Assembly: GCA_017510425.1 (NCBI GenBank)
Contig: JAFWNJ010000012.1
Coordinates: 1 to 38,348, forward strand
Length of the DNA: 38,348 nucleotides
Reading direction: 5' to 3'
From: Candidatus Saccharimonadota bacterium
GTDB lineage: Bacteria; Patescibacteriota; Saccharimonadia; Saccharimonadales; Saccharimonadaceae
Positions 5,687 to 37,222 of this stretch are shown here, piece by piece. The notes under the pieces are model-generated. The model worked only from the letters and a program-made list of their open reading frames with translations, was not told where the DNA came from and ran no database searches. Every line of letters starts with the position of its first letter. Position 1 is the first letter of the stretch. A program made the translations under genes and the position numbers.

Positions 5687-5733
5687 CTGGGATAGAAGTT
5701 ATTATTTATATCGCTATGAATGGTGAAGGATGT

Positions 5734-5775
5734 GAAATCGCGAAAATCGCGAAATTTCTGGACTTTCGCGATTTC
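5734..5775. repeat. Hairpin repeat A (CGCGAAA family)
   Basis: GAAATCGCGAAA (5734-5745) pairs with TTTCGCGATTTC (5764-5775). The 18-base loop contains a further partial copy of the arm. It is a diverged member of the repeat family described at 5824 and 7137. Confidence 0.8.
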
Positions 5776-5823
5776 AAAAAATAACAATAGCGGATTCACC
5801 ACTGTAATTACTGCACATTTCCA

Positions 5824-5862
5824 ATTCGCGAAAGTCACGGATTTTCTAGACTTTCGCGATTT
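5824..5862. repeat. Hairpin repeat B, left of the AAA ATPase
   Basis: CGCGAAAGTC (5827-5836) pairs with GACTTTCGCG (5849-5858). Positions 5826-5862 are identical over 37 bases to 7140-7176 on the other side of the ATPase gene, so the two copies are direct repeats that are each internally palindromic. Confidence 0.9.
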
Positions 5863-5877
5863 CAACTTAATAAGCTA

Positions 5878-10950: not shown

Positions 10951-13674
10951 ATGGCACGAAAAGAAAAGAAACCGACAGACAAGTTGGCAGATAAGACTGC
11001 ACTTACGAAATTCTTACAAGGGGTGTTTGGTGATGCCCAGAAGAAGACCTTAAAGAGGCTCTGGAAGCGAGCGCAAGAGATTACTAAGCTAGAGCCTAAA
11101 TATGAGGCGATGAGCGATGAAGATTTGCAAGCTCAGACTGATATTTTTCGGGCGAAGATTGATAAAGCTCTTAAGACCGCAAGAGCCGAGCAGGGTATTA
11201 ATAAGACCGGCAAGAAGCGTGCCCCGATTGATGATAAGAAGATTTTGAATGATTTACTACCTGATGCTTTCGCGGTAGCTAGGGAGGCGGCGAAGCGTAC
11301 GATAGGGCTTAGGCCATACGATGTGCAGCTGATTGGTGGTATGGTACTACATGAAGGCGCGGTAGCCGAGATGAAGACTGGTGAAGGTAAGACTCTCGTG
11401 GCCATGCTCCCGGCTTATCTTAATGGTTTGACTGGGCGTGGTGTGCATGTAGTGACCGTGAACGATTATCTGGCGCAGCGTGATGCGGGATGGAACGGAC
11501 CGATTTATGACTATTTGGGCTTATCGGTAGGCGTGATTATTAATGAGGCTTCGTTTATTTATGATAGTGATTATGAGAATGAGGGGCATGATGATGAGAG
11601 GTTTTTGCATCTGAAACCCTGTACACGTAAGGAAGCTTATAATGCGGATATTACCTATGGTACCAATAATGAGTTCGGGTTTGACTATCTGCGTGATAAC
11701 ATGGCGAGCGAGGTGCAATACCTGCGCCAGCGGGAGTTGAATTTTGCGATCGTGGATGAGGTGGATTCGATCTTGATTGATGAGGCGAGGACACCGCTGA
11801 TTATCAGTGCACCGGCAGGAGACAATCCGGAGAGCTATTATCAATTTGCGAAGGTGGCGGCGAGGCTGACACCAGAAGATTATATTTTCGACGAGAAGAG
11901 GCGTTCGGTGACCTTGACGGATAAGGGGATTGAGAAGGTTCAGGAGATACTGGGAGTCGACAATCTATATTCGACGAAGAATATGAGACTGGTCTATCAT
12001 TTGGAACAGGCAATTCGGGCCGAAGTTATCTTCAAGCGTGATAAGGATTACGTGGTAACAAATTCTGGCGAAGTGATTATTGTGGACGAGCACACTGGTC
12101 GTTTAATGCAGGGGCGGCGCTATAATGAGGGATTACATCAGGCGATTGAGGCGAAGGAAGGCGTGGTGGTAAAGCAAGAATCGATGACACTGGCCACGAT
12201 TTCGTTCCAGAATTTCTTTAGGTTATATAAGAAGTTATCTGGTATGACGGGTACGGCTTTCACGGAGGCGGAAGAATTCCAGCAGATTTATGCGCTGGAC
12301 GTAGTGCAGATACCACCGAATAAACCGATTATTCGTGTGGATAAGGATGATTTAATTTATAAGACGAAGGCTGGTAAGCTGAAGGCGATTGCGGATGAAA
12401 TTGCGAAATATCATAAGAAGGGTCAGCCGGTATTGGTTGGCTCTGGCTCGATTGCCAATAACGAAGAGATTGCGAGATACCTAGACCAGTATAATTTGCC
12501 GTATGAAATATTGAATGCGAAGAACAATGAGCGTGAAGCAGCGATTATTGCGAAGGCAGGCGAGAAGGGTGCGATTACGCTAGCTACTAACATGGCGGGG
12601 CGTGGTACAGATATTAAGCTGGGTGAGGGCGTACGTGAACTGGGCGGGCTAGTGGTGATTGGTTCGGAGAGGCATGATTCCAGGCGAGTGGACAATCAGC
12701 TAAGAGGTCGTGGTGGACGTCAGGGCGATCCTGGCACGACACAGTTCTTTGTTAGCTGTGAAGACGATTTGATGCGAATTTTCCAGGGTGATAGAGTAAA
12801 GATGTTAATGACGAGACTAGGTGTGGATGAGGATACGCCGATTCAGACTAAAGCGATTTCGAAGACCCTTGAAGCAGCCCAGAAGAGAATCGAAGGATTT
12901 AACTTTGATTCACGTAAGAATGTGGTGCAGTACGATAACGTGATTAATCGGCACCGCAAGGTTGTGTATATGATGCGCCGGAAGATTCTGGAGGGTGACG
13001 ATATTTATCCGGAGATTCAGAGATTAATGCGCGACGAGGTGAAGATGCTGACTGAATTCTCATCAAGGGTGAATAAGAATTTCGACGAAGAATTTAAGGC
13101 GGTGTTTGATTTTGACGATGACCTAATTCATGGTATTGGGCTGAAGCGCAAAGAGAAGGAGCGTGAGAAATTGGCGCTCGAGGCGGTCGAAGAGGCTTAC
13201 AGCAAGAAGGAAGACGAGTTTGGGTCGGAGACTATGCGTAAAGTGGAGCGCGAAGTGTATCTTAAAGTCCTAGATACTCTGTGGATGCAACATCTTGAGA
13301 ATATGCAGCACCTGCGCGAGGGGATTCATTGGCGCTCAGTAGGGCAGAGAGACCCACTAGTAGAGTACCGCTCGGAATCCCAGAAGCTGTTCGATGGACT
13401 ACAGAGAAACTTGCGTGAAGAAGTACTGAAGATTTTGCTCACGATTACTCCGGCTGAAGCTGCGGCTGATAATGCAATGGATGGCGAGGAATACGAATCC
13501 GAGCTGACTAAGATGGCTGAGACTCAGACTGAGCGAGGTGTTAACGAAATATCTAAAGGCGAGAAGAACTTGGACGATGAATTTAGGAAGTCCGCTCCAA
13601 AGCGTACTGTGGTAAAGAGCAAGAAGAAGAAAGCTAAATCGAAGAAGAAAAGATCTAACCATAAGAAACGATAG
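10951..13674 (+). CDS. secA: Preprotein translocase ATPase SecA
   Basis: A 907-residue motor that drives unfolded preproteins through SecYEG. It shows GGMVLHEGAVAEMKTGEGKT (Walker A), VDEVDSILIDEARTPLIIS (DEAD-like Walker B), SGMTGTAFTEAEEF, then TNMAGRGTDIKLG and QLRGRGGRQGDPGTTQF in the second nucleotide domain. The helical wing and scaffold follow (RRKILEGDDIYPEIQ; LDTLWMQHLENMQHLREGIHWRSVGQRDPL). The C-terminus is a lysine-rich tail (KSKKKKAKSKKKRSNHKKR). It lacks the usual CxCxSGxxxxxC(H/C) zinc finger for SecB and lipid binding. An insertion around residue 85-100 near the N-terminus is rich in Lys. Confidence 0.97.
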   Translation: MARKEKKPTDKLADKTALTKFLQGVFGDAQKKTLKRLWKRAQEITKLEPKYEAMSDEDLQAQTDIFRAKIDKALKTARAEQGINKTGKKRAPIDDKKILNDLLPDAFAVAREAAKRTIGLRPYDVQLIGGMVLHEGAVAEMKTGEGKTLVAMLPAYLNGLTGRGVHVVTVNDYLAQRDAGWNGPIYDYLGLSVGVIINEASFIYDSDYENEGHDDERFLHLKPCTRKEAYNADITYGTNNEFGFDYLRDNMASEVQYLRQRELNFAIVDEVDSILIDEARTPLIISAPAGDNPESYYQFAKVAARLTPEDYIFDEKRRSVTLTDKGIEKVQEILGVDNLYSTKNMRLVYHLEQAIRAEVIFKRDKDYVVTNSGEVIIVDEHTGRLMQGRRYNEGLHQAIEAKEGVVVKQESMTLATISFQNFFRLYKKLSGMTGTAFTEAEEFQQIYALDVVQIPPNKPIIRVDKDDLIYKTKAGKLKAIADEIAKYHKKGQPVLVGSGSIANNEEIARYLDQYNLPYEILNAKNNEREAAIIAKAGEKGAITLATNMAGRGTDIKLGEGVRELGGLVVIGSERHDSRRVDNQLRGRGGRQGDPGTTQFFVSCEDDLMRIFQGDRVKMLMTRLGVDEDTPIQTKAISKTLEAAQKRIEGFNFDSRKNVVQYDNVINRHRKVVYMMRRKILEGDDIYPEIQRLMRDEVKMLTEFSSRVNKNFDEEFKAVFDFDDDLIHGIGLKRKEKEREKLALEAVEEAYSKKEDEFGSETMRKVEREVYLKVLDTLWMQHLENMQHLREGIHWRSVGQRDPLVEYRSESQKLFDGLQRNLREEVLKILLTITPAEAAADNAMDGEEYESELTKMAETQTERGVNEISKGEKNLDDEFRKSAPKRTVVKSKKKKAKSKKKRSNHKKR

Positions 13675-16963: not shown

Positions 16964-18001
16964 TTATGTATTTTTAATGATTTCACAGGCCTCAGAAACA
17001 GAGTGGGTTTCCATGAGTTTGGCGCGAAGCTCTTTGGCGCCTGGAAAATTATTGACGTAGATTTTGAAAAAATGCTTCAAAGGTTCATATGAGGAAGTAT
17101 ACGAATAGGTTTTTTCGTCGCCGCTTCGCGCCAGCCCGTCGTTACGGGTGGCGCTCGCTAGGAGCTCCCCGTTGGTCGCTATGCTCCTTAAAAACCCATT
17201 CGTATACTTTTCATATAAATCTAAATGTAGTTTCAAGAGTTCCATCAACTCTTTCCGAGTAGGGATGTGATCGGTGAAGCAATATGGGTTTTGAAAGACA
17301 CTGCGGCCAATCATGAAGCCGTCAACCTCGGGGTATTGTTGATGTAACTCTAGGGCGTGAGCATGATCTCTTATATCACCATTGATGATTAATTTGGTCT
17401 CGGGACTAATTTCGTCACGGAGCTTGATAATATCTGGAATAAGTTCGTAGTGTGCGGGAACTTTGCTCATCTCCTTCTTAGTGCGAAGGTGTACGGTAAG
17501 GGCGGCTGGGTGTTCGGCGAGGAGGATCGAGAGCCAGGTCTTGTATTCATTAAGGTCTGACCAGCCGAGGCGGGTTTTGATTGATACTGGCAATTCGGTA
17601 CTTTTATGCGCATTACGAAAGCACTCTACGGCGAGTTCTGGGGTCTTAATCATAGCGGCACCACCACCAGCTTTATTGACGTGCTTATCGGGACAACCAA
17701 AATTGAGATCTACCCCTGAAAAACCGAGCGATAAAAGCGCGGATGAAACTTCCGAGAAATGGTCTGGATTTTTGCCCCAAATCTGAGCAATAATCGGTGG
17801 ATCAGTAGGGGCGATTTGGAGCCTCTCTAGAGCATTCGCGCGACCTTTTTCGGAAGCATAACTTGACACGTTGGTAAATTCCGTGAAAAATAAATCTGGG
17901 CGGCCAGCACTGGCAATAACTTGACGAAACAAAATATCCGTCACGCCTTCCATAGGCGCCAGAATTAAAAATGGTTTAGGTAATTGTTGCCAAATATTCA
18001 T
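16964..18001 (-). CDS. dus: tRNA-dihydrouridine synthase, with in-frame palindromic insertion
   Basis: A 345-residue FMN enzyme that reduces uridines in tRNA D-loops. The TIM-barrel motifs are LILAPMEGVTDILFRQ at the start, DLNFGCPDKHVNKAGGGAAM with the catalytic Cys of NxGCP, SIKTRLGW, and INGDIRD with the phosphate-binding GFMIGR. The C-terminal helical domain (EPLKHFFKIYV) is split by about 38 extra residues at about 264-302, reading KYTNGFLRSIATNGELL and on to EKTYSYTS. They are encoded by a palindrome-bounded element. The reading frame is preserved through it, so the enzyme is probably made with the extra segment. Confidence 0.92.
   Translation of the reverse strand: MNIWQQLPKPFLILAPMEGVTDILFRQVIASAGRPDLFFTEFTNVSSYASEKGRANALERLQIAPTDPPIIAQIWGKNPDHFSEVSSALLSLGFSGVDLNFGCPDKHVNKAGGGAAMIKTPELAVECFRNAHKSTELPVSIKTRLGWSDLNEYKTWLSILLAEHPAALTVHLRTKKEMSKVPAHYELIPDIIKLRDEISPETKLIINGDIRDHAHALELHQQYPEVDGFMIGRSVFQNPYCFTDHIPTRKELMELLKLHLDLYEKYTNGFLRSIATNGELLASATRNDGLARSGDEKTYSYTSSYEPLKHFFKIYVNNFPGAKELRAKLMETHSVSEACEIIKNT
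17095..17209. mobile_element. Palindromic element inserted in frame in dus
   Basis: The 20-base ends AAGTATACGAATAGGTTTTT (17095-17114) and the reverse complement at 17190-17209 match at 19 of 20 positions. Between them are two inner hairpins: GCGCCAGCCCGT with ACGGGTGGCGC (one bulge), and AGGAGC with GCTCCT. TTCATAT lies just outside both ends (17084-17090 and 17210-17216), either a target duplication or an extension of the inverted repeat. It is far more GC-rich inside than the gene around it. Confidence 0.75.
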
Positions 18002-22299: not shown

Positions 22300-22704
22300 A
22301 TGGCAAAGAATGATAATACCAATATTCAGCTTCATCTGATTGAACCTCGAGCTACTGAGAAGAGTTATTTGGAGCAAACTAACCGGATTTACGTTTTTCC
22401 AGTTAAGAAAACCATGGGTAAGCAAGAAATTGCTAAAATGGTTGAGAAAGAGTTTAACGTCACAGTAACTGATGTCAGAACTCTGATTCGTGACGGCAAG
22501 AAGACTAAATTCAGCAAAGGTAAGCATGCTTATCCAGGCATTACTCACCGTCAGGACAAGAAATTTGCTTACGTAAGATTAAAGCAGGGCGATTCGATTA
22601 AGGTATTTGATGAACCCGAAAGTGAAACCAGCGCAAAGGAAGCCAAAAAAGCTGATAAAGTAGCTAAGAAGGCGGACAAGAATGCAGGGAAGGAGAATAA
22701 ATAA
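22300..22704 (+). CDS. rplW: 50S ribosomal protein L23
   Basis: A 134-residue protein at the tunnel exit that docks SRP and trigger factor. The core is recognisable as IEPRATEKSYLEQTNRIYVFPV, then EFNVTVTDVRTLI and a basic loop KKTKFSKGKHAYPGITHRQDKK. About 30 extra residues at the end are rich in Lys, Ala and Glu. Its stop codon overlaps the L2 start codon (TAATG). Confidence 0.93.
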   Translation: MAKNDNTNIQLHLIEPRATEKSYLEQTNRIYVFPVKKTMGKQEIAKMVEKEFNVTVTDVRTLIRDGKKTKFSKGKHAYPGITHRQDKKFAYVRLKQGDSIKVFDEPESETSAKEAKKADKVAKKADKNAGKENK

Positions 22705-23540
22705 TGACAATTAAGGCTTACCGCCCAGTCACACCGGCGCAAAGGCAGAAGACTACACAAGATTTTGATCAGATTACGACCAAGAAGCCAATGAAGTCTT
22801 TGACCCTTGCCAAGAGACAGCAGGCGGGTAAAAACAATCAAGGTCGTATCACGGTACGACATCGTGGTGGTGGTGTAAAGCGCCATTACCGAATTTTGAC
22901 TTACAAATTACCGGAAAATTTGACTTTTACGGTTGAAGAGATTGAGTATGATCCAAATCGTTCGGCTCGGATTGCAAGAGTTAAGGACGAAAATGGTACA
23001 TATTATTATGTGCTTGCTGATACCAAGATGGTAAAAGGGACTACTTTTAAGACTGGTAAAGAGATAGAAGTCGAAGAATCAAGCAGAATGCCACTTGAGA
23101 ATATTCCAGTGGGTACGTTCGTGTACGCAGTGGAGCTTACTCCTGGTAAGGGTGCACAAATGGTACGTGCAGCAGGAGCTTCGGCGCAGCTAATGGCTAA
23201 GGAAGATGGCTATGCTACACTTAGGATGCCATCCGGTGAAGTACGTAAGGTGCTAAGCGAGTGCGAGGCATCGATTGGTACAGTTTCGAATTTGCAACAT
23301 CAGAATGTAAAGATCGGAGCGGCGGGTCGTCGTCGTCGCAAGGGTATTCGTCCGACCGTACGTGGTGTCGTGATGAATGCTACGGATCACCCACACGGTG
23401 GTGGTGACGGTGGTCGTCACGGTTCTGGTAAAGCTCCGCGTACTCCGTGGGGTCAGCTCACGCTTGGTTACAGAACTCGTCACAATAAGAAAACCAATAA
23501 AATGATCGTGCGCAGTCGCCACGAAGGAAAGAGGAAATAA
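22704..23540 (+). CDS. rplB: 50S ribosomal protein L2
   Basis: A 278-residue protein near the peptidyl-transferase centre. [31 protein letters not shown], and [23 protein letters not shown] with the conserved His region are diagnostic. Full length. TAATG overlaps join it to L23 upstream and S19 downstream. Confidence 0.98.
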
Positions 23541-23836
23541 TGTCTAGGAGTCTTAAGAAGGGTCCATTTGTGGACTTCAAACTCGCAAAGAAGATTGCCG
23601 CACTTTCCAGCGAAGATCGCACCATTGTGAAGACTTGGGCAAGGCAATCAACTATTTCCCCTGAAATGGTTGGCCGAACAATTGCTGTGCACAACGGTAA
23701 GGTTCATGTCCCGGTGTTCGTATCGGAAAACATGGTGGGTCATAAGCTTGGTGAATTTGCGCCAACTCGTAAATTTAAACGCCATGGTGGTAAGAAGGCG
23801 GCCGAAGCTGCTGCAGCTGAGAAAGGAGCTAACTAA
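23540..23836 (+). CDS. rpsS: 30S ribosomal protein S19
   Basis: A 98-residue head protein of the 30S subunit. It opens [14 protein letters not shown] and contains [28 protein letters not shown] and [18 protein letters not shown] short Ala-rich end ([12 protein letters not shown]) is slightly longer than usual. The start codon overlaps the L2 stop. Confidence 0.97.
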
Positions 23837-23838
23837 TT

Positions 23839-24258
23839 ATGGCGGAAACATATTTTGCACATGCATATGAGAAAGGTATCGATTCTCAGCCGAGAAAGAC
23901 CAGCATTGTAGCATCTCTCGTGAGAGATCGTTATGTGGCTGATGCTGTGGTGATTCTAGAAAATACACCAAGGCGTGCTGCAAGAGCAGTGCTAAAGGCT
24001 GTAGAGTCAGCGAATGCTAATTTATTGAATAACACTAAGGTTTCGATTGATCCGAAAAGTATCAGGATTGCTCGAATTTTTGTCACAAGTGGTACTAGGA
24101 TGCGCAGATACAAGCCAGCTTCACGCGGGCGTGCGCTTCCATACGAGAAGATTAGTAGTAATATATTCGTCGAGGTCGCAGGCGAAGAAAAAGTAAAGAA
24201 AACTGCTGGAAAGGCCGAAGCTAGCCCTAAAGCAGGAGCGAAGAAGGAGAAAAAGTAA
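23839..24258 (+). CDS. rplV: 50S ribosomal protein L22
   Basis: A 139-residue tunnel protein. The core is YAHAYEKGIDSQPRK-like followed by SLVRDRYVADAVVILENTPRRAARAVLKAVESANAN in the family order. The tunnel loop carries GTRMRRYKPASRGRALPYEKISSNIFVEV. About 25 Lys/Ala-rich residues extend the end. The first ten residues are less typical than the rest. Confidence 0.93.
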   Translation: MAETYFAHAYEKGIDSQPRKTSIVASLVRDRYVADAVVILENTPRRAARAVLKAVESANANLLNNTKVSIDPKSIRIARIFVTSGTRMRRYKPASRGRALPYEKISSNIFVEVAGEEKVKKTAGKAEASPKAGAKKEKK

Positions 24259-24259
24259 T

Positions 24260-24886
24260 ATGGGTCAGAAGGTTAATCCCATCTCTTACCGTCTCCAGGT
24301 CAGCAAAGATTGGTCTTCGAAGTGGTTCACTCGGAAATCAGATTTTCGCCATTGGCTAGTGGAAGACGTCAAGATTCGCAAATTTATTGAGGACAGATAT
24401 AAATCTCGTCCAACAATTGCGCGAATCGGTATAGAGCGTTCGGCAAATCTTACTACGATTACGATTCTAACAGCTAAGGCTGGTAGCGTGATTGGTAAGC
24501 AGGGTGCCGGAATCAATGAGCTGAAAAAGGAGCTCGAAAAGATGATCAAAGGGCCGATTCGTATTAATGTCGAGGAAGTTAAGAAGCCAGAACTGAATGC
24601 AAAATTAGTTGCAGAAAACATTGGTTTCCAACTTGGCAAGCGTATGAATTTCCGCCGTGCGGTCAAGATGGCTCTACAATCTACGATGAATGCTGGAGCT
24701 AAAGGTGTTCGTATCGAGGTTTCTGGACGTCTAAACGGCGCCGAGATGAGTCGTCGAGAAAAGTTTATTGAAGGTTCAGTGCCGCTACACACTTTGCGTG
24801 CTGACATTGATTTTTACTGTCATCACGCTCCGACGATTGCCGGAATTGTGGGTGTAAAGGTTTGGATCTATAAGGGGGAGAAATAA
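24260..24886 (+). CDS. rpsC: 30S ribosomal protein S3
   Basis: A 208-residue protein at the mRNA entry site. MGQKVNPISYRL opens it, the KH domain has VIGKQGAGINELKKELEKMI, and the C-terminal domain has FRRAVKMALQSTMNAGAKGVRIEVSGRLNGAEMSR. It is complete and starts one base after the L22 stop. Confidence 0.97.
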   Translation: MGQKVNPISYRLQVSKDWSSKWFTRKSDFRHWLVEDVKIRKFIEDRYKSRPTIARIGIERSANLTTITILTAKAGSVIGKQGAGINELKKELEKMIKGPIRINVEEVKKPELNAKLVAENIGFQLGKRMNFRRAVKMALQSTMNAGAKGVRIEVSGRLNGAEMSRREKFIEGSVPLHTLRADIDFYCHHAPTIAGIVGVKVWIYKGEK

Positions 24887-24887
24887 G

Positions 24888-25307
24888 ATGGCAATTTTAC
24901 TTCCAAGAAAGACTGCTCACCGCAAGGTGCGCAAGGGTAAGAACGAGGGTGTAGCTACGCGTTGCAACACGGTGGCTTTTGGTGATTATGGTTTGATGTC
25001 GCTTGATAACGAACGTGTCACTTCAAAGCAAATCGAGGCCGCACGTCAGGCAATTACTCGTTTCATTAAGCGTGGTGGTAAAATTTGGATTCGAATTTTC
25101 CCACATACACCGGTTACCAAGAAACCACTTGACGTAAAAATGGGTTCTGGTAAAGGTGAACCACAGTTCTTTGTAGCTAAAGTAAAAGCTGGTACTGTGA
25201 TGTTTGAGATTGCAGACGTGACCGATGAACAGGCAAAGGAAGCCCTAAGGCTTGCTTCGCATAAGTTGCCGATGAAATGCAAAATAATTAAGAAAGAGGA
25301 GTTTTAA
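24888..25307 (+). CDS. rplP: 50S ribosomal protein L16
   Basis: A 139-residue protein in the A-site region of the 50S. LLPRKTAHRKVRKGKNEG opens it; IRIFPHTPVTKKPLDVKMGSGKGEP and YFFVAKVKAG-like residues follow. Only one base separates it from S17, leaving no room for rpmC (L29), which normally sits here. Confidence 0.96.
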   Translation: MAILLPRKTAHRKVRKGKNEGVATRCNTVAFGDYGLMSLDNERVTSKQIEAARQAITRFIKRGGKIWIRIFPHTPVTKKPLDVKMGSGKGEPQFFVAKVKAGTVMFEIADVTDEQAKEALRLASHKLPMKCKIIKKEEF

Positions 25308-25308
25308 A

Positions 25309-25692
25309 ATGGCACACACTTTAATTGGTATTGTGACTAGTGAAAAGCGCGATAAGACCATTACCGTCTCTATCGTGAGTAGGGAAACTCATCCACTCTA
25401 TCGTAAGCAATATACGAAGACTCGTAAATACACTGCGCATGACGAAAAGAACGAGGCTCATGAGGGTGATAAAGTGCAAATTGCAATGACTCGTCCGATA
25501 TCTAAGACTAAGGCTTATACTTTAGTCAAGGTGCTCGAGCGTTCTCGTGGCAGGGTTGAACTAAAAGACGATGTGAATGAGGTTGAGTTGCCGGAAAAAG
25601 TAGGCGCAGATAAGATTGCCGAAGTTAAGAAAGCTGAAGAATCGAAGCGAGCCGAAAAATCAGAACCGGCTGAAGAAGGGGAGGAAGCATAA
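25309..25692 (+). CDS. rpsQ: 30S ribosomal protein S17
   Basis: A 127-residue protein; the S17 fold is in the first ~85 residues ([49 protein letters not shown]). About 40 acidic/Lys-rich residues follow ([23 protein letters not shown]), unlike the compact E. coli form. Its stop overlaps the L14 start region. Confidence 0.94.
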
Positions 25693-26060
25693 TGATACAG
25701 CAAGAAACAAGATTAAAAGTAGCTGACAACAGTGGCGCCAAGGAACTTGGAGTGATTCGAGTGCTAGGTGGTACTCATGCTCGCTATGCCAAGGTTGGCG
25801 ACGTGGTCACTTGCTCAGTGAAGGATGCGACACCGACTGGTGGCGTGAAGAAGAAAGCTGTGGTTCGTGCGGTGATCGTCAGGACTGTAGCTCCGATTCG
25901 TCGTCCGGATGGCTCGACGATTCGCTTTGACGAAAACGCCGCAGTGCTCGTAAACGAAGACAAGACTCCTAGGGGTACTCGTGTATTCGGTCCAATTCCT
26001 AGGGAAATACGTGATGCTGGATTTACTAAGATTATCAGCTTGGCACCGGAGGTACTCTAA
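25692..26060 (+). CDS. rplN: 50S ribosomal protein L14
   Basis: A 122-residue protein at the subunit interface. [20 protein letters not shown] is the standard start; [39 protein letters not shown] closes it. Usual length, no tail. The ATG overlaps the S17 stop, and its TAATG overlaps L24. Confidence 0.98.
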
Positions 26061-26359
26061 TGAAAAGTTTGAAGATTGGAGATAAGGTTGCGGTGATTGC
26101 TGGCAGTCACAAAGGCGAGACTGCTAAGATTGTGAAAATTGATCGCAAAGCTGGTAAAGCATGCTTAGAAGGTATCAATATAATCGAACGTCATGTCAAG
26201 AAGTCATATTTGAACCCGACTGGCGGTAAGAAGACAGTCCACATCGGTATCGATTTATCTAATTTGAAGCTGGTCGAGGCTTCAAAATACGTGAAGTCGG
26301 CTGTGAAAAAAGTTGACAACGACAAAAAGGATAAGAAAGCTAAGAAAGGAGCTAAGTAA
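26060..26359 (+). CDS. rplX: 50S ribosomal protein L24
   Basis: A 99-residue protein of early 50S assembly. The KOW motif is KIGDKVAVIAGSHKGETAKIVKI, followed by EGINIIERHVKK. The end is a Lys-rich tail (KKVDNDKKDKKAKKGAK). It overlaps both neighbours by TAATG. Confidence 0.94.
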   Translation: MKSLKIGDKVAVIAGSHKGETAKIVKIDRKAGKACLEGINIIERHVKKSYLNPTGGKKTVHIGIDLSNLKLVEASKYVKSAVKKVDNDKKDKKAKKGAK

Positions 26360-27027
26360 TGGCGGAAAAGAAAACGGCTGCTACGAAAAAGGCTGTAAAG
26401 CCGGCTGTTAAGGCTGAAAAACCGGCTGTTAAGGCTGAAAAGCCAGCTGCAAAATCAGCTAAAACCGTAGCACAACCACGTCTTAAAGCTCTTTATAATA
26501 ATGAATTTAAGGCGAAACTTCAGAAGGAACTGGGACTAAAGAATATCAATCAGGTTCCAAAACTAGAAAAGGTTGTAGTTTCCTCTGGAGTTGGTAAGAA
26601 ACGTGAAGACAAGCGCTTCACCGAGACGGTGGCATTGACACTGGCTAAGATTACGGGTCAAGCAGCTACGTCTAGATTGGCAAAGAAATCAATTGCGACA
26701 TTTAAGATTCGAAAAGGCATGGGTGCACCAGTTGGATACCTCACGACTCTTCGAAATGATAAGATGTATGAGTTTGTCGATCGTTTAATTAATATTGCTT
26801 TACCACACGTGCGTGATTTCCACGGCGTTTCACGTAAGGCTTTTGATGCGCAAGGCAATTACAGCTTGGGCCTGAGGGAGCAGACGGTGTTTCCAGAGAT
26901 TACTTTTGAGGATGCATCGGTCCTACATGGTCTTGAAGTAACGTTTATAATTAAAAATGGCTCAAAGGAAGGAAGTCTAAAATTGCTAGAACTATTCGGA
27001 ATGCCGTTTGAGAAGGAGACAAAGTAG
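26359..27027 (+). CDS. rplE: 50S ribosomal protein L5 with repeat-rich N-terminal extension
   Basis: A 222-residue protein that holds 5S rRNA and contacts P-site tRNA. The L5 core starts near residue 42 ([21 protein letters not shown]) and runs through [15 protein letters not shown] and [11 protein letters not shown]. The first ~40 residues are a Lys/Ala/Pro tandem repeat based on [13 protein letters not shown], encoded by a 21-base repeat near 26393-26455. No alternative start near the core has a good ribosome-binding site. Confidence 0.94.
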
Positions 27028-27028
27028 C

Positions 27029-27298
27029 ATGGCAAAGAAATCTGCAGTTCTCCGCGATGAAAAACGGCAAAAGATGTATAACAAGTATAAAGAAAAACGT
27101 GCGGCGTTGAAGATGGCAGGTGACCTTGAAGGTCTACAAAAGCTGCCACGCAATTCTTCACCGACAAGACTAAAGAATCGTGACATGCTGGACGGTCGTC
27201 CACGCGGTTACATGCGTCGATTTGGTCTTTCACGTATTAATTTCCGGGAAAAAGCATCGAAAGGTGAGATTCCTGGCGTAACTAAGAGTAGCTGGTAA
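27029..27298 (+). CDS. rpsN: 30S ribosomal protein S14, zinc-free type
   Basis: An 89-residue S14. The family end is [32 protein letters not shown]. There is no cysteine, so this is the C-minus (zinc-independent) form of full length rather than the 61-residue zinc form. The ATG at 27029 lies 2 bases after the L5 stop. Confidence 0.96.
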
Positions 27299-27310
27299 GA
27301 AAGGAGAAAT

Positions 27311-27712
27311 ATGTCAATACAATCTACTGATCAAATTGCCGATCTTATCACGCGAATTCGTAATGCGGTGATAGTAGGCAAAAACGAAATATTAGTTCCG
27401 GCTTCTAAGCTTAAGGCTGGTCTGGTGGAAGTTCTAGCTAAGAATGGCTACGTTAAAGGCTTTGAGATTGTGGAAGAAACTCCACGGAAGCTATTACATG
27501 TCGTAATTAATGAGCCTGGTATGAACGCTAAGATAAGTGAGATTACCAAGGTGTCTAAGCCAGGGCGAAGAGTATATTCATCGGCAGATGAAATACCTAC
27601 GATCAAGTCTGGACGAGGTATGGTTATCGTGTCAACATCGAAGGGCTTGATGACTGGTAAAGAAGCCAAGAAGAATCGGCTGGGCGGTGAAATACTAGTA
27701 AAGGTTTGGTAA
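27311..27712 (+). CDS. rpsH: 30S ribosomal protein S8
   Basis: A 133-residue protein that binds helix 21 of 16S rRNA. TDQIADLITRIRNAVIVGK opens it and GRGMVIVSTSKGLMTGKEAKKNRLGGEILVKVW closes it. AAGGAG lies before the start. It ends the first half of the cluster: a strong terminator follows, instead of rplF. Confidence 0.96.
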   Translation: MSIQSTDQIADLITRIRNAVIVGKNEILVPASKLKAGLVEVLAKNGYVKGFEIVEETPRKLLHVVINEPGMNAKISEITKVSKPGRRVYSSADEIPTIKSGRGMVIVSTSKGLMTGKEAKKNRLGGEILVKVW

Positions 27713-27722
27713 AACGAAAATA

Positions 27723-27771
27723 GCCGGGTTTGGCAAAGCCTAGAAATAGGTTTCTGCCACCCGCTTTTTTG
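27723..27771 (+). terminator. Terminator after rpsH
   Basis: CGGGT plus TGGCA (27725-27735) pair with TGCCA plus CCCG (27755-27763). An inner AAGCCT/AGGTTT stem and a run of six T follow the outer stem. It ends ribosomal transcription before the surface-protein genes. Confidence 0.85.
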
Positions 27772-27800
27772 TTTTGCCAGTTTTGTCATTACGCTTATCG

Positions 27801-27829
27801 TTGCCCCTGTTTGACGGGTATGATATAAT
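27801..27829 (+). promoter_or_regulatory. Promoter of the 1705-residue surface protein gene
   Basis: TTGCCC (27801-27806), 17 bases, then TATAAT (27824-27829) with TGA before it. The leader is about 37 bases and contains a TGTTAT/ATAACA hairpin at 27841-27855. Confidence 0.6.
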
Positions 27830-27872
27830 GGCGACAAATTTGTTATCATAATAACAGAGCGAAGGAGTTATT

Positions 27873-30800
27873 TTGGGAAAAGTGAAAAAGAATCTGCAAA
27901 AATTGATGCGCTTTTTCTTAGCATCATTACTTGCAGTCGGTAGTTTGCCGTTAGATATTATTAGTGTTTATGCGGTGGGCGCTACAGATGCTGCGGATTC
28001 ACCAACTGTTGTGTCTGCTAAGGGTTTAACCGATGCACCTGCGCACGAAAAGAAATTGGTTGACAATGGCGATGGCACATATACGCTTAGCCTTAGTGTT
28101 ACCGGCAAGGCATCTTCATCGGTTACCCAAGAAGTCACGAAATCTAATGTGATTTTATTGATTGATACATCCAGTAGCATGATAAGAAATTCTGCTACTG
28201 GTTATGATGGTAATAGACTTGAGGCTGAAAAGAATGCACTAACTAAAACCAATGGTATTATTGATAAACTCCTCGCTAATAATACTGAAGAAATAAGTGA
28301 TAATATTGAATTATATGGCATTAATTTCGGGACTGGCGGTACAAGGGCTTGGGATTGGTCAACTAATGGCACGACGATTAAAAATGCTATCAACGGTCTT
28401 ACTACGAATAGTGGGACAAACTGGGAGGAAGCTTTAAGCTTGGCTAAAGATGCCGCTGACTCTAAACGTGCTGCTGAACCAGACGATAATACCTTCGTGA
28501 TTCTTTTGACTGATGGTCAACCGACTACCGATCAAACTCGCCCGGAAACTGGTCCTAACAATAGGCACACGGTGAGTACCGACTATGCGACTGAATGGGG
28601 TTATGCAAGCGATGATGCTCGCGCCATTGTTGCTGCTGGAAATACTTTTTACGGAGTTTATACGTTTGGACCGACGGGAAGCAGCCCTAATTGTAATACA
28701 TACAATACCGGCGGTATTACTTGTTTAAAAAGTTTAATTAACTATGCGTATACTGGCACTGGTAATGCCAATTCGGCATTATCATCAGATTACGCTGGAT
28801 ATTTCTATGATGCCACTAGTACTCAAGCTCTTATCGATGCGCTCGAGGCTATTGTAGATGAGATATCGTCAAGCGTTGGTTATACTAATATTGTGATGAC
28901 TGATGGTCTTACGGACCTTACTTCATCGATGAAAGTTGACGGAAAAATTTCTAATCTCACTTATACTCGTAGTGGCGGTAGTTATGGGGATGGCACTGTT
29001 TGGACTAATGCGCCGCAGGCGACTACTACTAATAGTAGTATCAATTGGAATCTTGGTTCGACCGTGTTAGAAGATGGCGTGACTTATACGGTTTCCTTCT
29101 TGGTCTGGCCAAAACAGGAATCATACGACCTTGTTGCTGACCTTAACAATAGTAAAAAGACTTACGATAGCCTCACTGATTCACAAAAGACTTCTATAGT
29201 AGAAAATCCAGATGGTTCGTATACTCTAAAGACTAACACCGATTTTCCAACGTTGACCTATTCGACCGTTACCACTACGACGAGTAATGCCGGTACCGAG
29301 ACCGTAGTTTCTATTCCAACTACTATAGATATTGATAATCCGAGACCGGTTGGACTTAAGAATGAAAAACTCACGCTTAAGAAGATTTGGGAAGATTCTT
29401 TGGATCCATCGCAGCGAGAAGAGGTTGAGGAAGTAGTGCTCGATTTTTATAAAGATGGTGCTAAATATGAAAAGGATGTCCATCTCAATGCGAACAATGA
29501 TTGGGAATTAACCAATTATATTTCCATCGCACCAGGTGTTATGCTAAGCAATGCTTCTCAAAACTATAATGCCTTAAAACCTGGTCATACTGAATACGAG
29601 TTTGATGGTAAAACTTATATTATTCTTGAAGAAGGTCACGATTATTATTTCGATGAACATGATATAAATAGCCATTTCGAGTTGACGAACTATGTTTATC
29701 ATCCAATGATTGTCGACAATGTGTTAAAGAACGTGTTTTTCACTCGCGACGAGGCTGGTAACATTACTAATATTGAAGAATTTAGAGGGATGGATTCGGT
29801 TTCCGCTACTAATACTCTGAAGGGCGGTATTAATATCCAGAAAAAAGTGGTCGATGTGGAAGGTAATGAGGTTGACACTGATGATTCGTTTAAAATCACA
29901 GCGCATCTTCTTGGTACCGATGGAAAACCATATGAGTATGATTATCGTATTTATTACGGAGAGAAAAACCCAGAGTATGAATCGCACATTGTGTATAACG
30001 ACGATGGTTCGATTAGGTATAGCCGTTCTGGACATATCTACGGAACTGGCGACATCGCTGAGACTTTATATATAGGAGATGTTATCCGTGTCGTGAACGT
30101 AAATACGGGCGTGCAATACTACGTAGAGGAAGCCGAGAAGAATGGCTATGCTACGAACCCTACTATAACTTATAAGGAAGCGTATGGCACTGGTAGCTTG
30201 GTAAATGCTGCTCAGACGGAAGATGGTTATTATGTTGTTTCTGGTAATACGGCTTCTTCTGTTACTGTTATAAATAAATTCCTCGATGAAAAAACTAAGG
30301 TTGATTTTGAAAAAACTTGGTATGGTGTGGATGGTAATGTACTAAGCGGCAAAACCCTTCCTGGCAGTATTACAATTGAGCTTTTCAAGAAGGGTGCCGA
30401 TGGCAAAAAAGTTTCGACTGGTCAAACTAAAAAAGTAACCGCTGGTACCGAATGGAAGGGGTCGTTTACCGAACTTCCGAAATACGACAATGGCGTAACG
30501 ATTGTATATTCAGTTGAAGAAAGTGCTATTGAAGGTGCTACTTATGACGATCAAAGAGAGGCCTTCTTTGAGTATGATTCTGAGGAAAACAATGGTAAGC
30601 ATGCTGTGGTTGGTAGATGGACCGTTATGACTCTTGAGGATCTTATTATTAAAAATACTTGGAAGCCGGCTACCGAAAGCGTTACTGGTCGTACTAGCTT
30701 TAACATTATAAAGATCGACAAGGACACCAAAGAGCCACTTTCGGGAGCAGTTTTTGAATTGAAACTTAAAGATGGCACTGTCTTTACAGCAACTACTAAT

Positions 30801-32990
30801 TCAGAGGGTAAAGCTGTCTTTAATAATTTGGATTCTGGTGAATATACTTTGAAGGAGACTAATGCGCCAGAAGGTTACAGATCGATTTCTACTGAGCCGA
30901 ATATTAACATTACTAAAATCAAGAGGCTTAATTCTATTGACCTTGATAATCTGAAAAATTTTTACGAATATATCTTCTCATTTAGCACTTCGCAGGTGGA
31001 TGGATATGAATACGATGTTCAGAGCCGCACATTTACAGTCAAGAATGAACCTATTCCTTATAGCAATATCACTGCCGCTAAGATTTGGAATGATGATGAT
31101 GACCGTGATGGCTTGCGTAAGAATTATGTAAACTATTATGTGGCGGTAAGGAATAATAGTGGTAAGTATGTGGCATATGAAAAACTGGTGCTTGAGGATA
31201 AGGATAATTATGAGTTCAAGCATTTGCCATTGAAAACCACGGATGGTGAAGATATTAGCTATGAAATTGTAGAGGCATCTTCTTGTAGTGGCAGTGGAAA
31301 TTCAATTAAATGTACGGAGTTTAAGAGTGATAATGATTACACCGTGACGGTTGAGAATGGCGTGATTACGAATAAACATATACCAGAATTGATCAATGAG
31401 GATGATGATGACCCGGAAAATGATGGAAAGTTGACTGTACAAAAGGTTTGGACTGGCGAAGGGAATGAGTTAGTCAGGCCAGCTGCAGTGACAATTGAGC
31501 TTCATGCTGAGACTATTAATGATGACGGTGAGATTAAATCGTGGATGGTGGGTCAGCCTGTGATGATTTCTCAGGTAAATGATTGGTCGTATACCTTTGA
31601 GAGGTTGTATCGTTATGATAATGGCCTAGAGATTACTTATTCGGTGCAGGAATCGAAATTGGGCGAGACTGCATTTGGTGAAAACGAGAGTACGATTGTG
31701 GTCTATGGGGAGGATAATGCAATTGCGGGTAGTTGGACTAGAAGTGTTAGTGGATATGATGTGACTAATAGTTGGAAGAAGGCTACGGATGAGATTAGAT
31801 ATAGTGGTGCCGATAAATTCTATATCAAGAAGGTCGATGAACAGTACAAAGAGATGAAGGGCGTAACGTTCTTGATTAATAAGAAAGAAAAAGTGACGGA
31901 TGAAGATGGAATGGTTAGCAAGAGTGTACCCGTGTCAACTATTGAAAAGGAAGAGAGTTTTAAATTTGTAATTAGCGAAAAGGAGACTTTGGAAGGTTAT
32001 GACTTAGTAGAGGGTTCGGCGGCGATAGAGGTAGTTTGCACTAGTGTATTAGCTGATACCGATACGGCGACATTAATAAATACCTACGATAAGACTTGCC
32101 TTTTCAATAAAACTGGAAGCGATAAGTATATTTGGAATGATGCTAATAAAACTTTGACGGTAGTAAATAAGCGAAGTTTGGCAGCCTCGCTGAAGATTCG
32201 AAAAGAAATATCTGGTATTACGGAGGAGGCATTAATTAGAAATGGATTGATGTTTACTTTGACCGGACCGGAAGATTTTGAAACACAAGAGATAATGTTC
32301 AGCGATTTTGAGAGGGGCGAAGATGGTGTGTATGAGTATGCTGTAACTGGTAGAATCCCGACTGGTAAATATACAGTTGTGGAGTCGAATGCTGATTTCG
32401 AAGATATGCTTGACTTGACTATTTCGGGCGATAATGACATCGAAAAAACGGTTGGTAAGAATGATAAAGTAGAATTTGTGATTAAGAATAGTTATAAGAA
32501 AATTCGCGACGTAGCGCTTGCGGTCGAGAAGGTATGGGATGATAGTGATGACCGGGACGGTATTAGACCGACGGAACTTGCGATTATCCTTCTTAGGAAC
32601 GGAGAAGAATATAGGACGATTGCGCTTAGCGATAAGAATGAATGGCGTTATGAATGGACAGATTTGCCGAGGGCGGATGAAAATGCTGAATACTATGAGT
32701 ATAGTGTAATTGAGGAAGATGTAGATGGATATGAATCGGACGGTGGGGTACTCGATGAGGATGCTGTGTTTGTATTTACCAATACGCATGAACCAGAGCC
32801 GCTCGACCCTTGCCTAGATGGTGGAGGTTGTGGTGGACCGATTGCGCCGGATACTGGTCTGATTACCAAGGGGCGTGTTGGTAGTGCTACGGTTGGCGTT
32901 TCGTTAACACAATATGCAATTGGCGGTATAATGACGGTAATTATGGGGCTATCAATGATTGTACTGTCGCGTAAAAAGATAAAAAAATAA
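27873..32990 (+). CDS. Giant surface adhesin: VWA domain, about nine Cna-B/SpaA-type repeats, APDTG sorting signal
   Basis: A 1705-residue exported protein starting at TTG, six bases after AAGGAG. Residues 1-35 are a signal peptide. A von Willebrand A domain begins near 91 with the metal-binding DTSSSM (MIDAS) and ILLTDGQP. Collagen-binding-B/SpaA-like domains start near 499, 650, 809, 943, 1064, 1185, 1316, 1439 and 1545 (for example KIWNDDDDRDGLR and KVWDDSDDRDGIRP). These folds often carry Lys-Asn isopeptide bonds that stiffen pilins. The end is a sortase-type signal: APDTG at 1658-1662, a hydrophobic helix, then RKKIKK. It is inserted in the ribosomal cluster. It probably binds a host cell or matrix, but the ligand cannot be read from sequence. 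Confidence 0.9.
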   Translation: MGKVKKNLQKLMRFFLASLLAVGSLPLDIISVYAVGATDAADSPTVVSAKGLTDAPAHEKKLVDNGDGTYTLSLSVTGKASSSVTQEVTKSNVILLIDTSSSMIRNSATGYDGNRLEAEKNALTKTNGIIDKLLANNTEEISDNIELYGINFGTGGTRAWDWSTNGTTIKNAINGLTTNSGTNWEEALSLAKDAADSKRAAEPDDNTFVILLTDGQPTTDQTRPETGPNNRHTVSTDYATEWGYASDDARAIVAAGNTFYGVYTFGPTGSSPNCNTYNTGGITCLKSLINYAYTGTGNANSALSSDYAGYFYDATSTQALIDALEAIVDEISSSVGYTNIVMTDGLTDLTSSMKVDGKISNLTYTRSGGSYGDGTVWTNAPQATTTNSSINWNLGSTVLEDGVTYTVSFLVWPKQESYDLVADLNNSKKTYDSLTDSQKTSIVENPDGSYTLKTNTDFPTLTYSTVTTTTSNAGTETVVSIPTTIDIDNPRPVGLKNEKLTLKKIWEDSLDPSQREEVEEVVLDFYKDGAKYEKDVHLNANNDWELTNYISIAPGVMLSNASQNYNALKPGHTEYEFDGKTYIILEEGHDYYFDEHDINSHFELTNYVYHPMIVDNVLKNVFFTRDEAGNITNIEEFRGMDSVSATNTLKGGINIQKKVVDVEGNEVDTDDSFKITAHLLGTDGKPYEYDYRIYYGEKNPEYESHIVYNDDGSIRYSRSGHIYGTGDIAETLYIGDVIRVVNVNTGVQYYVEEAEKNGYATNPTITYKEAYGTGSLVNAAQTEDGYYVVSGNTASSVTVINKFLDEKTKVDFEKTWYGVDGNVLSGKTLPGSITIELFKKGADGKKVSTGQTKKVTAGTEWKGSFTELPKYDNGVTIVYSVEESAIEGATYDDQREAFFEYDSEENNGKHAVVGRWTVMTLEDLIIKNTWKPATESVTGRTSFNIIKIDKDTKEPLSGAVFELKLKDGTVFTATTNSEGKAVFNNLDSGEYTLKETNAPEGYRSISTEPNINITKIKRLNSIDLDNLKNFYEYIFSFSTSQVDGYEYDVQSRTFTVKNEPIPYSNITAAKIWNDDDDRDGLRKNYVNYYVAVRNNSGKYVAYEKLVLEDKDNYEFKHLPLKTTDGEDISYEIVEASSCSGSGNSIKCTEFKSDNDYTVTVENGVITNKHIPELINEDDDDPENDGKLTVQKVWTGEGNELVRPAAVTIELHAETINDDGEIKSWMVGQPVMISQVNDWSYTFERLYRYDNGLEITYSVQESKLGETAFGENESTIVVYGEDNAIAGSWTRSVSGYDVTNSWKKATDEIRYSGADKFYIKKVDEQYKEMKGVTFLINKKEKVTDEDGMVSKSVPVSTIEKEESFKFVISEKETLEGYDLVEGSAAIEVVCTSVLADTDTATLINTYDKTCLFNKTGSDKYIWNDANKTLTVVNKRSLAASLKIRKEISGITEEALIRNGLMFTLTGPEDFETQEIMFSDFERGEDGVYEYAVTGRIPTGKYTVVESNADFEDMLDLTISGDNDIEKTVGKNDKVEFVIKNSYKKIRDVALAVEKVWDDSDDRDGIRPTELAIILLRNGEEYRTIALSDKNEWRYEWTDLPRADENAEYYEYSVIEEDVDGYESDGGVLDEDAVFVFTNTHEPEPLDPCLDGGGCGGPIAPDTGLITKGRVGSATVGVSLTQYAIGGIMTVIMGLSMIVLSRKKIKK

Positions 32991-33002
32991 TAGAAAATGA
33001 AG

Positions 33003-33039
33003 CAAAGTATTCACCGATTAAGTCGATGAATACTTTGTT
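33003..33039 (+). terminator. Terminator-like hairpin after the giant adhesin
   Basis: CAAAGTATTCA (33003-33013) pairs perfectly with TGAATACTTTG (33027-33037). The tail is only TT, so termination may be partial. Confidence 0.6.
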
Positions 33040-33074
33040 GGTGGAAAAATCTCCTAAATTGCTTATTTATATTA

Positions 33075-33103
33075 TTGACTTAAGGATTTTGCCAATATAT
33101 AAT
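33075..33103 (+). promoter_or_regulatory. Promoter of the 569-residue surface protein gene
   Basis: TTGACT (33075-33080), 17 bases, TATAAT (33098-33103). GGAGGA (33118-33123) precedes the ATG, a leader of about 19 bases. Confidence 0.7.
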
Positions 33104-33128
33104 CTAAATTAGTAATTGGAGGAAAAAA

Positions 33129-34838
33129 ATGGCTAAATATAGAATAGCTCGTGTCTTATCAGCGGCTGCCTTAGTTGCTGGTTCGGGTGTTTTTGCGCCA
33201 GCAGTCTGGGCTGACGGCGAGTGCGTGGCGGCTGATCTGGAAGGGTTGGAAACCTGCCTCGCAGATACAGAATCAACATCTGTTACTACGACGGATACAA
33301 TTGTGGTGTCAGGTGTTCAGAAAACACTATTAATTAATAAAGACATAAATGGCGTAAGTGGCAAAGATTTCATCAATGTCACGGACGGAGCATCGCTTAC
33401 GTTGCGTGGTAGTGGCATTATCACGGCCGGGCGCTATGGTGCGCGCGTGGATGGTGCGGAGCTAATGATTGACGGTGTGACCATTAGTGCAACTAACCCG
33501 ACGATGTATGGTGTATATGCCTTGAATAATGGTCGCGTTACGATGGAAAGTGGTCAGGTGGTAGCTGATTATGCAGCTTTTGCTGGTAATAATACTACTG
33601 GTGATATGAATTTTTATATTCATGGGGGACAGCTAATCTCCAATAGATATCCGGCAGTTTATATGCCTGGTCAAGTGTTCTTGGAAATGCGTGGTGGGAC
33701 TTTGTCTGGTGGCATTGTGGCCAGAATGGGTCAGATTACGATTGAAGGGGGTACTATTAATGTGCAGTCAAATCCAGTCGAAGGTGATGGTTTGGATGTA
33801 AATTATAATGGTATGCCAAGTATGGCGAATGAGGCGATCACTCTAATTGCGGGTTCGTATAGTAGCACTACTACTGACTATGGTAATAGTATGAATGTTT
33901 CTATTTCTGGTTATAATACTCAGATTAATGGCGACATTGTGCTCTATGATTTGGGTAATACTGCGGCTGGTTTTGAACAGAATGTCAACGTTTCGATTGA
34001 AGACGGGCGTTTAACTGGATTTAAGACTAAGTATACTGAAGAAGAAATTGGTTTTGCATTGAAGAGCGGTTATACTGCGGGCTTAAATAATGATGCGGGT
34101 AGGATAAATGTTGAAATTACTGGCGGCGATTTCTTGGTCGAGCCGGCTGAGGAAGATTTGGTCCCTGGTTATGAGGCAGATTTAAATGAAGATACTGGCG
34201 TATATGAAGTTTGGCCGAAGCAGGTTGACTATAAGGATGACTATCTTGAGGCGCTTTATGGTGATTATGCAGTTTATGTAGATTTCAATAGTGAACTGAT
34301 TGCAGATCGCAAGGCTGATCTTGCAGCGGAGACGATTGATCCAAGTGAACTTAAATTGACCGGTGATGGCGAACTTATAGGTGCAATTGATATCAATATG
34401 GTAGATCGGGATGGCGTAAGAATAGAAGTAAACGATGTTGATATGAGGGTTTATATCGATATCGATGAAGACACATATAATCAGCTTGCTGAGTATGACA
34501 AGATTGAGGCTGTCTACTTTGATGAAGATGGGAATGAGGTGGAGCGGCTTGAGGCCGATCTAAATGCTGAGACTTACGATTATGTGGATCCGATAACTGG
34601 CGAGTCAGAAACTTGGTATTTCTACTGGGTTGAGTTTAGCACGACACATCTTTCGACTTATGGCATAGTTGGTGTTAATGAGGAAAGTGAAGAAGCGGCC
34701 GAAGAAGCTTCAGCACCTGAGACTGGTGTCATAACGATGGCTGGTGCTTCGGCTATGAATGCAGCAGTTGTCACGGCTGTAGTAATAGGAATTCTTACTT
34801 CAGTAGTGAGCTTTGCTTATCTGATTCGTCGTAGATAG
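33129..34838 (+). CDS. Surface protein with beta-helix-like repeats and APETG sorting signal
   Basis: A 569-residue exported protein. The signal peptide is MAKYRIARVLSAAALVAGSG with likely cleavage after WA near 28. Residues ~60-260 are short beta-strand repeats with G, T and N turns (SLTLRGSGIITAG, VTMESGQVV, EMRGGTLSGG, ITIEGGTINV), as in right-handed beta-helices. An acidic region follows to about 520. The end has APETG (529-533), a hydrophobic helix and RRR, a sortase-type wall-anchor signal matching that of its neighbour. It is likely surface-displayed; function unknown. Strong promoter and ribosome-binding site suggest high expression. Confidence 0.85.
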   Translation: MAKYRIARVLSAAALVAGSGVFAPAVWADGECVAADLEGLETCLADTESTSVTTTDTIVVSGVQKTLLINKDINGVSGKDFINVTDGASLTLRGSGIITAGRYGARVDGAELMIDGVTISATNPTMYGVYALNNGRVTMESGQVVADYAAFAGNNTTGDMNFYIHGGQLISNRYPAVYMPGQVFLEMRGGTLSGGIVARMGQITIEGGTINVQSNPVEGDGLDVNYNGMPSMANEAITLIAGSYSSTTTDYGNSMNVSISGYNTQINGDIVLYDLGNTAAGFEQNVNVSIEDGRLTGFKTKYTEEEIGFALKSGYTAGLNNDAGRINVEITGGDFLVEPAEEDLVPGYEADLNEDTGVYEVWPKQVDYKDDYLEALYGDYAVYVDFNSELIADRKADLAAETIDPSELKLTGDGELIGAIDINMVDRDGVRIEVNDVDMRVYIDIDEDTYNQLAEYDKIEAVYFDEDGNEVERLEADLNAETYDYVDPITGESETWYFYWVEFSTTHLSTYGIVGVNEESEEAAEEASAPETGVITMAGASAMNAAVVTAVVIGILTSVVSFAYLIRRR

Positions 34839-34862
34839 TCGCAATCGATAGTAGCTAGCATT

Positions 34863-34889
34863 AGAACCCCCAGATTGTCTGGGGGTTCT
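34863..34889 (+). terminator. Strong hairpin after the surface protein
   Basis: AGAACCCCCAGA (34863-34874) pairs perfectly with TCTGGGGGTTCT (34878-34889) around a 3-base loop. There is no T-run, but the stem is very stable. It isolates the adhesin unit from the L6 operon. Confidence 0.65.
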
Positions 34890-34927
34890 GAGATGTTGTG
34901 GCTTTTGCGGTTTAACCTTGCGGCCTC

Positions 34928-34956
34928 TTGCGGAAAATACTAAAGTGTGATATTAT
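34928..34956 (+). promoter_or_regulatory. Promoter of the L6-L18-S5-L15 operon
   Basis: TTGCGG (34928-34933), 17 bases, TATTAT (34951-34956) with TGA before it as extended -10. It gives the second half of the spc-like cluster its own start after the adhesin insert. Confidence 0.5.
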
Positions 34957-34984
34957 TATAGATAATATTAACAAAAGGAGACAA

Positions 34985-35521: not shown

Positions 35522-35850
35522 TGAAAGCTGAATTTAGAGCAAAAAGAACTCGTGCCAAGATTCACGGTACCGTTGACAGGCCGAGGCTCGCTGTGCATTT
35601 TTCGAATTTGCACATCGTCGCACAAATAATTGATGATGACAAGAAGGTAACACTTTGCTATGCGACTACGGTTGGCGGCAAAATGACTGGTACCAAGGCG
35701 GAAAAAGCTGCCAAGATTGGTGCAGAGATAGCTAAGAAAGCAAAAGCTGCTAAGATTTCCAAGGTAGTTTTCGATCGTGGTTCTAAATTATATGCTGGGC
35801 GGATGTCGGCATTTGCTGATGCAGCTCGCAAAGAAGGATTGGAGTTTTAA
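35521..35850 (+). CDS. rplR: 50S ribosomal protein L18
   Basis: A 109-residue 5S-rRNA-binding protein. RAKRTRAKIHGTVDRPRLAVHFSNLHIVAQIIDD and VVFDRGSKLYAGRMSAFADAARKEGLEF are the family ends. Its start overlaps the L6 stop. Confidence 0.96.
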   Translation: MKAEFRAKRTRAKIHGTVDRPRLAVHFSNLHIVAQIIDDDKKVTLCYATTVGGKMTGTKAEKAAKIGAEIAKKAKAAKISKVVFDRGSKLYAGRMSAFADAARKEGLEF

Positions 35851-35852
35851 TT

Positions 35853-37189: not shown

Positions 37190-37194
37190 TTCCA

Positions 37195-37222
37195 AAATAA
37201 CCCCTCCAAAGGGGTTATTTTT
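37195..37222 (+). terminator. Terminator after rplO
   Basis: AATAACCCC (37196-37204) pairs with GGGGTTATT (37211-37219) and a T-run follows. Confidence 0.85.

Follow-up and report, generated by a model that had tools for sequence, protein, structure and literature searches.

A palindromic element within a Saccharibacteria dus gene, probably one copy of a mobile family with a shared core and copy-specific terminal stems

The window (the whole stretch of DNA analysed, 38,348 nt) belongs to a genome assembly of 840 kb in 30 contigs (G000, about 94% complete). Its dus gene holds a palindromic element with the following features, the arms being named in element orientation.

16964 to 18001, minus strand: dus gene for a tRNA-dihydrouridine synthase of 345 aa, which holds the element in frame (translation; matches to DusC structures at E 5e-25 and to a DusB model at E 2e-40)
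17084 to 17090, minus strand: TTCATAT, native codons on the SYEP side (Dus alignment with relatives)
17095 to 17114, minus strand: 3' arm of the copy-specific terminal stem, 20 nt (matches only its own partner in the genome)
17115 to 17189, minus strand: conserved core, 75 nt, with a multi-branch junction and two hairpins; the GA junctions are slightly degenerate in this copy (fold, comparison with other copies)
17123 to 17158, minus strand: hairpin 2, GCGAGCGCCACCCGTAACGACGGGCTGGCGCGAAGC (fold, alignment to other copies)
17135 to 17148, minus strand: tip of hairpin 2, CCCGTAACGACGGG, the most conserved part of the family (alignment to other copies)
17161 to 17187, minus strand: hairpin 1, GGAGCATAGCGACCAACGGGGAGCTCC on the coding strand (fold, alignment to other copies)
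17190 to 17209, minus strand: 5' arm of the copy-specific terminal stem, 20 nt (inverted-repeat scan, fold)
17210 to 17216, minus strand: TTCATAT, native codons on the LYEK side (Dus alignment with relatives)

The inverted repeat 17095-17114/17190-17209 (20 nt, 95% complementary, 75 nt apart) was detected by a repeat scan of the whole window. The coding strand of the element folded with -62.3 kcal/mol (z = -8.0, dinucleotide shuffles) and the plus strand with -55.8 kcal/mol (z = -6.0); for neither strand was any shuffled sequence as good. Two hairpins were placed within the element by the fold (17123-17158 and 17161-17187), and the dus ORF remained open across its whole length without a stop. 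A palindrome of about 115 bases with 20-base ends, two internal hairpins and an insertion without frame break had been described in a sequence-only reading of the window. All three were borne out, the inverted repeat in two scans.

Elsewhere in the window, a nested inverted repeat with 47-nt arms (79% complementary, TCGCGAAA/TTTCGCGA units) lies between two ORFs at 5733-5864; its sequence is unrelated to the element. A long run of small co-directional ORFs (22300-38000) surrounds an ORF of 1705 aa (27873-32990, TTG start), whose product matched one PHROG of unknown function (E 3e-28). Five other proteins tested from this run had no PHROG match.

For presence and absence at the dus site, Dus proteins of 26 relatives were aligned. 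The element was found at the same place in G003 and G006, and the other relatives were without it, so that the predicted Dus orthologues lacking the inserted residues do exist. G013 and G014 carry an unrelated, shorter insertion at this site. Compared with the element-bearing gene, dus is shorter by exactly 93 nt in four of the five closest empty-site relatives and by 72 nt in the fifth; the earlier figure of about 38 added residues was thus corrected to a net 31 for these four. A target duplication had been proposed from TTCATAT on both sides. Read on the coding strand, the motif is ATATGAA and forms part of native LYEK and SYEP codons, and because the pair is also present in relatives without the insert, it is not a target duplication. 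Between the three copies at the orthologous dus position, which may or may not descend from one insertion, 6-8 arm positions are changed on both sides yet paired.

For the other host genes, seven relatives were compared: some or all of them had an empty site, and at times a different subtype occupied it. Four clean empty/filled pairs (L275, L276, L281 and L288) were obtained from a clade of three genomes with about 91% DNA identity. In G112, the copy within obg (L323) contains a second element, nested in its hairpin 2. These patterns of presence and absence suggest that the family is actively mobile.

Several further observations were made at such sites. The copy at L276 (G112) lies just upstream of the start codon of a phosphoglucosamine-mutase-like gene starting MKYFGTDG, and the ribosome-binding-site region there may be imperfectly duplicated. 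The alaS copy L112 (G000 C24:81687) holds a nested unit in or beside hairpin 2 and is still in frame. A different large palindrome of GGCGGGTCCTGCCG...CGGGTGACGGC type occupies sites that hold the element in another genome (L331, L333 and L335 in G112, L332 in G115, L334 in G067), apparently as a second palindromic superfamily that shares sites with the element. About 1 kb in the mnmA neighbourhood of G112 C2 (L221; alignment columns 11562-12567) is missing from G067 and G115.

For copy number, a 133-base query was searched against its own genome. Besides the query and its two arms, 21 places were matched, seven of them at E < 1e-5, and the aligned matches have a common core. A covariance model (R1), in which only hairpin 2 was captured as paired and which was used as a finder only, yielded 32 matches in this genome at E < 1e-3, which puts the number of copies at about 32. 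With the same model, copies were detected in 59 of 60 sampled genomes of the genus (1-33 each). The dispersed copies predicted from the sequence, most of them in frame within other genes, were therefore found; the element is clearly not unique, and its residues are clearly not common to all Dus proteins, most of which are without the insert. In an order-wide search of 149 genomes, covariance-model matches were confined to this genus and to one sister genus (g20), in which three genomes scored. The sister-genus copies inspected appear to sit outside genes; in g20 (L459 and L460), model matches are inverted pairs about 60-180 nt apart, apparently intergenic, with near-identical copies beside the same gene start in two genomes. 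Among the matches listed in an exact-pattern scan of public genomes, all were from Candidatus Saccharibacteria, most of them from ruminant or other gut samples. A literature search of open-licence papers found palindromic elements reported neither for Saccharibacteria nor for the candidate phyla radiation.

The copies, of roughly 110 bases, follow a shared plan: an outer stem, a GA-opposite-GA junction (CGAG/CGAG), hairpin 1, and hairpin 2 with the tip CCCGTAACGACGGG. The core of 65-80 nt is near-identical at unrelated sites and the terminal stem measures 15-25 bp, perfect or nearly so. That this stem is copy-specific became visible by comparison with other copies. GA/GA mismatches are present on one strand only, which hints at, and does not prove, use of the structure as a single strand. 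Pairing was quantified in 25 type-D copies of equal length, with pairs counted on an ungapped alignment. Here, 94.5% of cells were paired (74.4% in shuffles), the covariation score was 0.555 (0.182 in shuffles) and 21 of 23 outer-stem pairs were changed on both sides. When the partner was slid by one base, pairing dropped to about 38%. Since the outer arms differ between insertions, this covariation means that each copy is self-complementary, not that compensatory evolution took place at one locus.

Most copies leave the reading frame of a protein gene intact and lengthen its product by 30-40 amino acids. In the own genome, 25 of the 30 best copies lie in frame within ORFs without a stop; one more, in an ORF of 96 aa, was not counted. 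Host genes were assigned with NCBIfam and are mostly housekeeping. Multiple copies are held by argS (three), obg, valS, ileS and mnmA (two each). Further hosts are alaS, gyrA, gatA, gatB, uvrB, typA, queA, tatD, ychF and dus, as well as genes for a NifS-type cysteine desulfurase, a P-type ATPase, an aminotransferase and a methyltransferase (weak match). Genus-wide, 128 of 150 copies (85%) were located inside ORFs of at least 180 codons, compared with 76% of random windows. Sense-orientation copies (n = 73) used mainly two frames (43 and 28), and the frame that reads TAA in the hairpin-2 tip was used by 2 of 73. A preference for the sense strand, as seen in the own genome (20:5), was not upheld genus-wide (73:55) and was dropped; orientation thus gives no support to a role as sense RNA. 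Gene-breaking copies have probably been removed by selection, so that those in frame remain. The inserts are presumably tolerated as surface loops, given that the dus site is length-variable in relatives, and intact ORFs of essential genes suggest that host proteins with the insert are active.

The arms behave differently from the core. Identity was profiled across 76 copies that form 128 non-orthologous pairs whose cores are at least 0.95 identical. It was 0.97 within the core, dropped to about 0.5 and further to 0.25-0.4 just past the junction on both sides, and was at random level about 20 nt outside the core. In 26 orthologous pairs, it was 0.7-0.9 across core and arms. Movement of the whole element would give copies with the same core the same arms; the arms differ and were therefore not inherited with the core. 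Bases nearest the core retain weak similarity, so that about 5-10 bp of the stem may travel with it as part of the mobile unit.

Several sources of the arms were considered and rejected. Fast arm change after insertion was not supported: in orthologous copies from relatives of about 91-95%, arms and core change at similar low rates, and some arm changes are uncompensated. Capture from elsewhere in the genome was rejected, as the arms of own-genome copies had no match beyond chance elsewhere in the genome (assembly about 94% complete). Long palindromes pre-existing at the target were rejected since empty sites show none. A fixed-offset arm comparison by local alignment was set aside because arms were mixed with native flank. 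Fold-back copying next to the core, core exchange between old palindromes, or something else are retained as candidates.

The dus element very probably belongs to a family of mobile, non-autonomous palindromes that inhabits a gut-associated genus of Saccharibacteria, and in which the core is copied and sits at the tip of a stem. This core (65-80 nt; on one strand a multi-branch fold that contains two hairpins and GA/GA mismatches) would be copied to new places and end up there capping a stem of 15-25 bp whose pairing is perfect or almost so. Movement may take place as a single-stranded hairpin (DNA or RNA) recognised through the core. The donor's terminal stem would not be brought along; a new one would instead be made at or about insertion, perhaps when the strand adjoining the core folds back and is copied (snap-back copying). 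Selection would then remove gene-breaking copies, and survivors would be those in frame in permissive loops, tolerated as a hydrophilic peptide. A cellular function of the element is unnecessary to explain the data. That the core alone is copied, and that a new near-perfect self-complementary stem of 15-25 bp is made per insertion from neither the donor nor the rest of the genome, is put forward tentatively. We know of no insertion chemistry in any described transposon that makes a new terminal stem per site, and of no mechanism that explains a constant core with different long paired ends in each copy.

Alternatively, the arms could be templated by the target, with native host-gene sequence as the 5' arm and an inverted copy of it, made during insertion, as the 3' arm. 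This is possible, though doubtful. The 5' arm aligns to native protein at several sites (dus, argS, ychF and uvrB), and in the nested element in obg of G112, the youngest event seen, we read native GACGG as the 5' arm, CCGTC as the 3' arm and GACGG again beyond. The obg and valS sites, however, favour the other arm. When arms were scored against the empty-site sequence of relatives, the 5' arm reached 8.09/12, the control 7.82 and the 3' arm 7.73, a marginal overall signal that gives at most a slight hint of a partly native 5' arm. In the four close empty/filled pairs neither arm was clearly native and arms were mostly absent from the empty allele, both being largely missing in L276, L281 and L288. 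Different cores at the same site also carry unlike arms, which does not favour templating. As the sole origin of the arms, templating was rejected: it is favoured by divergent relatives and weakened by the close pairs and the arm statistic.

Core homogenisation is a rather unlikely explanation. Old palindromes would be fixed in place and their cores swapped by gene conversion, with arms that keep the history of the locus. It accords with the valS copies of two relatives of about 91% identity (L064 and L265), which have related arms but different core hairpins, and with the different core subtypes often carried by close relatives at the same sites. Clean empty sites in close relatives, on the other hand, indicate gain or loss of whole units including arms. 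Where the same site holds different cores, mean arm similarity is at baseline (0.40 vs 0.39), in a comparison that is sensitive to register.

It is improbable that the element is a functional structured RNA (regulatory or processed) maintained by selection and not selfish. Covariation is strong, loops are conserved and the GA-rich strand folds better than its complement; but most sites are not common to relatives, host genes are very different, both orientations are common (73:55), and a search of the Rfam covariance models gave no family match to the element even at E 1. Folded inserts in genes of yeast mitochondria act as bypassing elements, and by this precedent the insert might be absent from the protein through translational bypass or intron-like removal; this is very improbable, as the inserts keep the frame and avoid stops, which would be needless if they were removed. 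Least probable of all are units of a TIGR-Tas stem-loop array, known in Patescibacteria. Such arrays recall the element in that their guide units are flanked by variable palindromes and short motifs are conserved (PMC12045711), but their units stand in tandem with unpaired dual spacers of 8-12 nt, whereas the copies are dispersed single units, mostly within genes, and their inner segments pair with each other and so leave no free spacers of this kind.

The element was compared with known systems. Bacterial MITEs (Correia/NEMIS, ERIC, RUP, YPAL) are likewise small non-autonomous repeats, some of them in frame in genes. They have fixed terminal repeats and usually target duplications. The element differs in having no conserved terminal inverted repeats; there is no target duplication at dus and a possible 5-nt repeat in one nested copy. 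REP/RAYT units and IS200/IS605 palindromes are also short palindromic units possibly recognised as folded single strands, but their defining traits are conserved foot sequences together with a Y1 transposase. Of 60 genus genomes, two encode that transposase family (PF01797) and 58 do not; G000 is without it, and control genomes were positive. A RAYT or IS200 origin is therefore unlikely, as is a Y1 transposase as the mobilising enzyme. Long inverted repeats in coding genes of Nematomorpha mitochondria are species-specific, and their arms change in concert (PMC6649704). No conserved mobile core is described for these, and orthologous arms of the element change slowly, some without compensation.

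The Rickettsia palindromic elements (RPE; Ogata et al. 2000) are palindromes of about 105-146 bp, present in many copies, in frame in conserved genes and without a known transposase (PMC2229807, PMC10969869). They have a 12-bp terminal inverted repeat (PMC2229807, Table 1), and a Rickettsia guanylate kinase with an RPE insert was reported to be active (PMC2229807). Size class, many dispersed copies, in-frame residence in conserved genes and lack of a known transposase are common to the element, RPE and Wolbachia palindromic elements. The likeness to RPE drawn in the sequence-only reading held in that the element is a dispersed palindrome of 100-150 bp with a long stem-loop fold, in frame in unrelated genes and absent from orthologues. 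It did not hold for the ends: the terminal stem differs in every copy and only the core is conserved. Lacking a family-wide terminal inverted repeat, the element is not an RPE in the strict sense, in a comparison with RPE as they are described. It also differs in its host, a Saccharibacteria genus, and in that its copies are mostly inside genes (85%).

To our knowledge, in-frame palindromic invaders of protein genes are known mainly from Rickettsia and Wolbachia. The present family is found in bacteria of the candidate phyla radiation with reduced genomes: nearly all sampled species of the genus have it, and a single essential tRNA ligase holds up to three copies. The family accounts for odd insertions in proteins of Saccharibacteria and offers natural tests by the hundred of where a protein loop can take 30-40 additional residues. 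It also raises the question of how a constant core gains different yet self-complementary ends at each site. If the stem is indeed made anew per insertion, this would be an insertion chemistry that we know from no described transposon, belonging to selfish palindromes housed mainly in essential genes of one genus of Patescibacteria.
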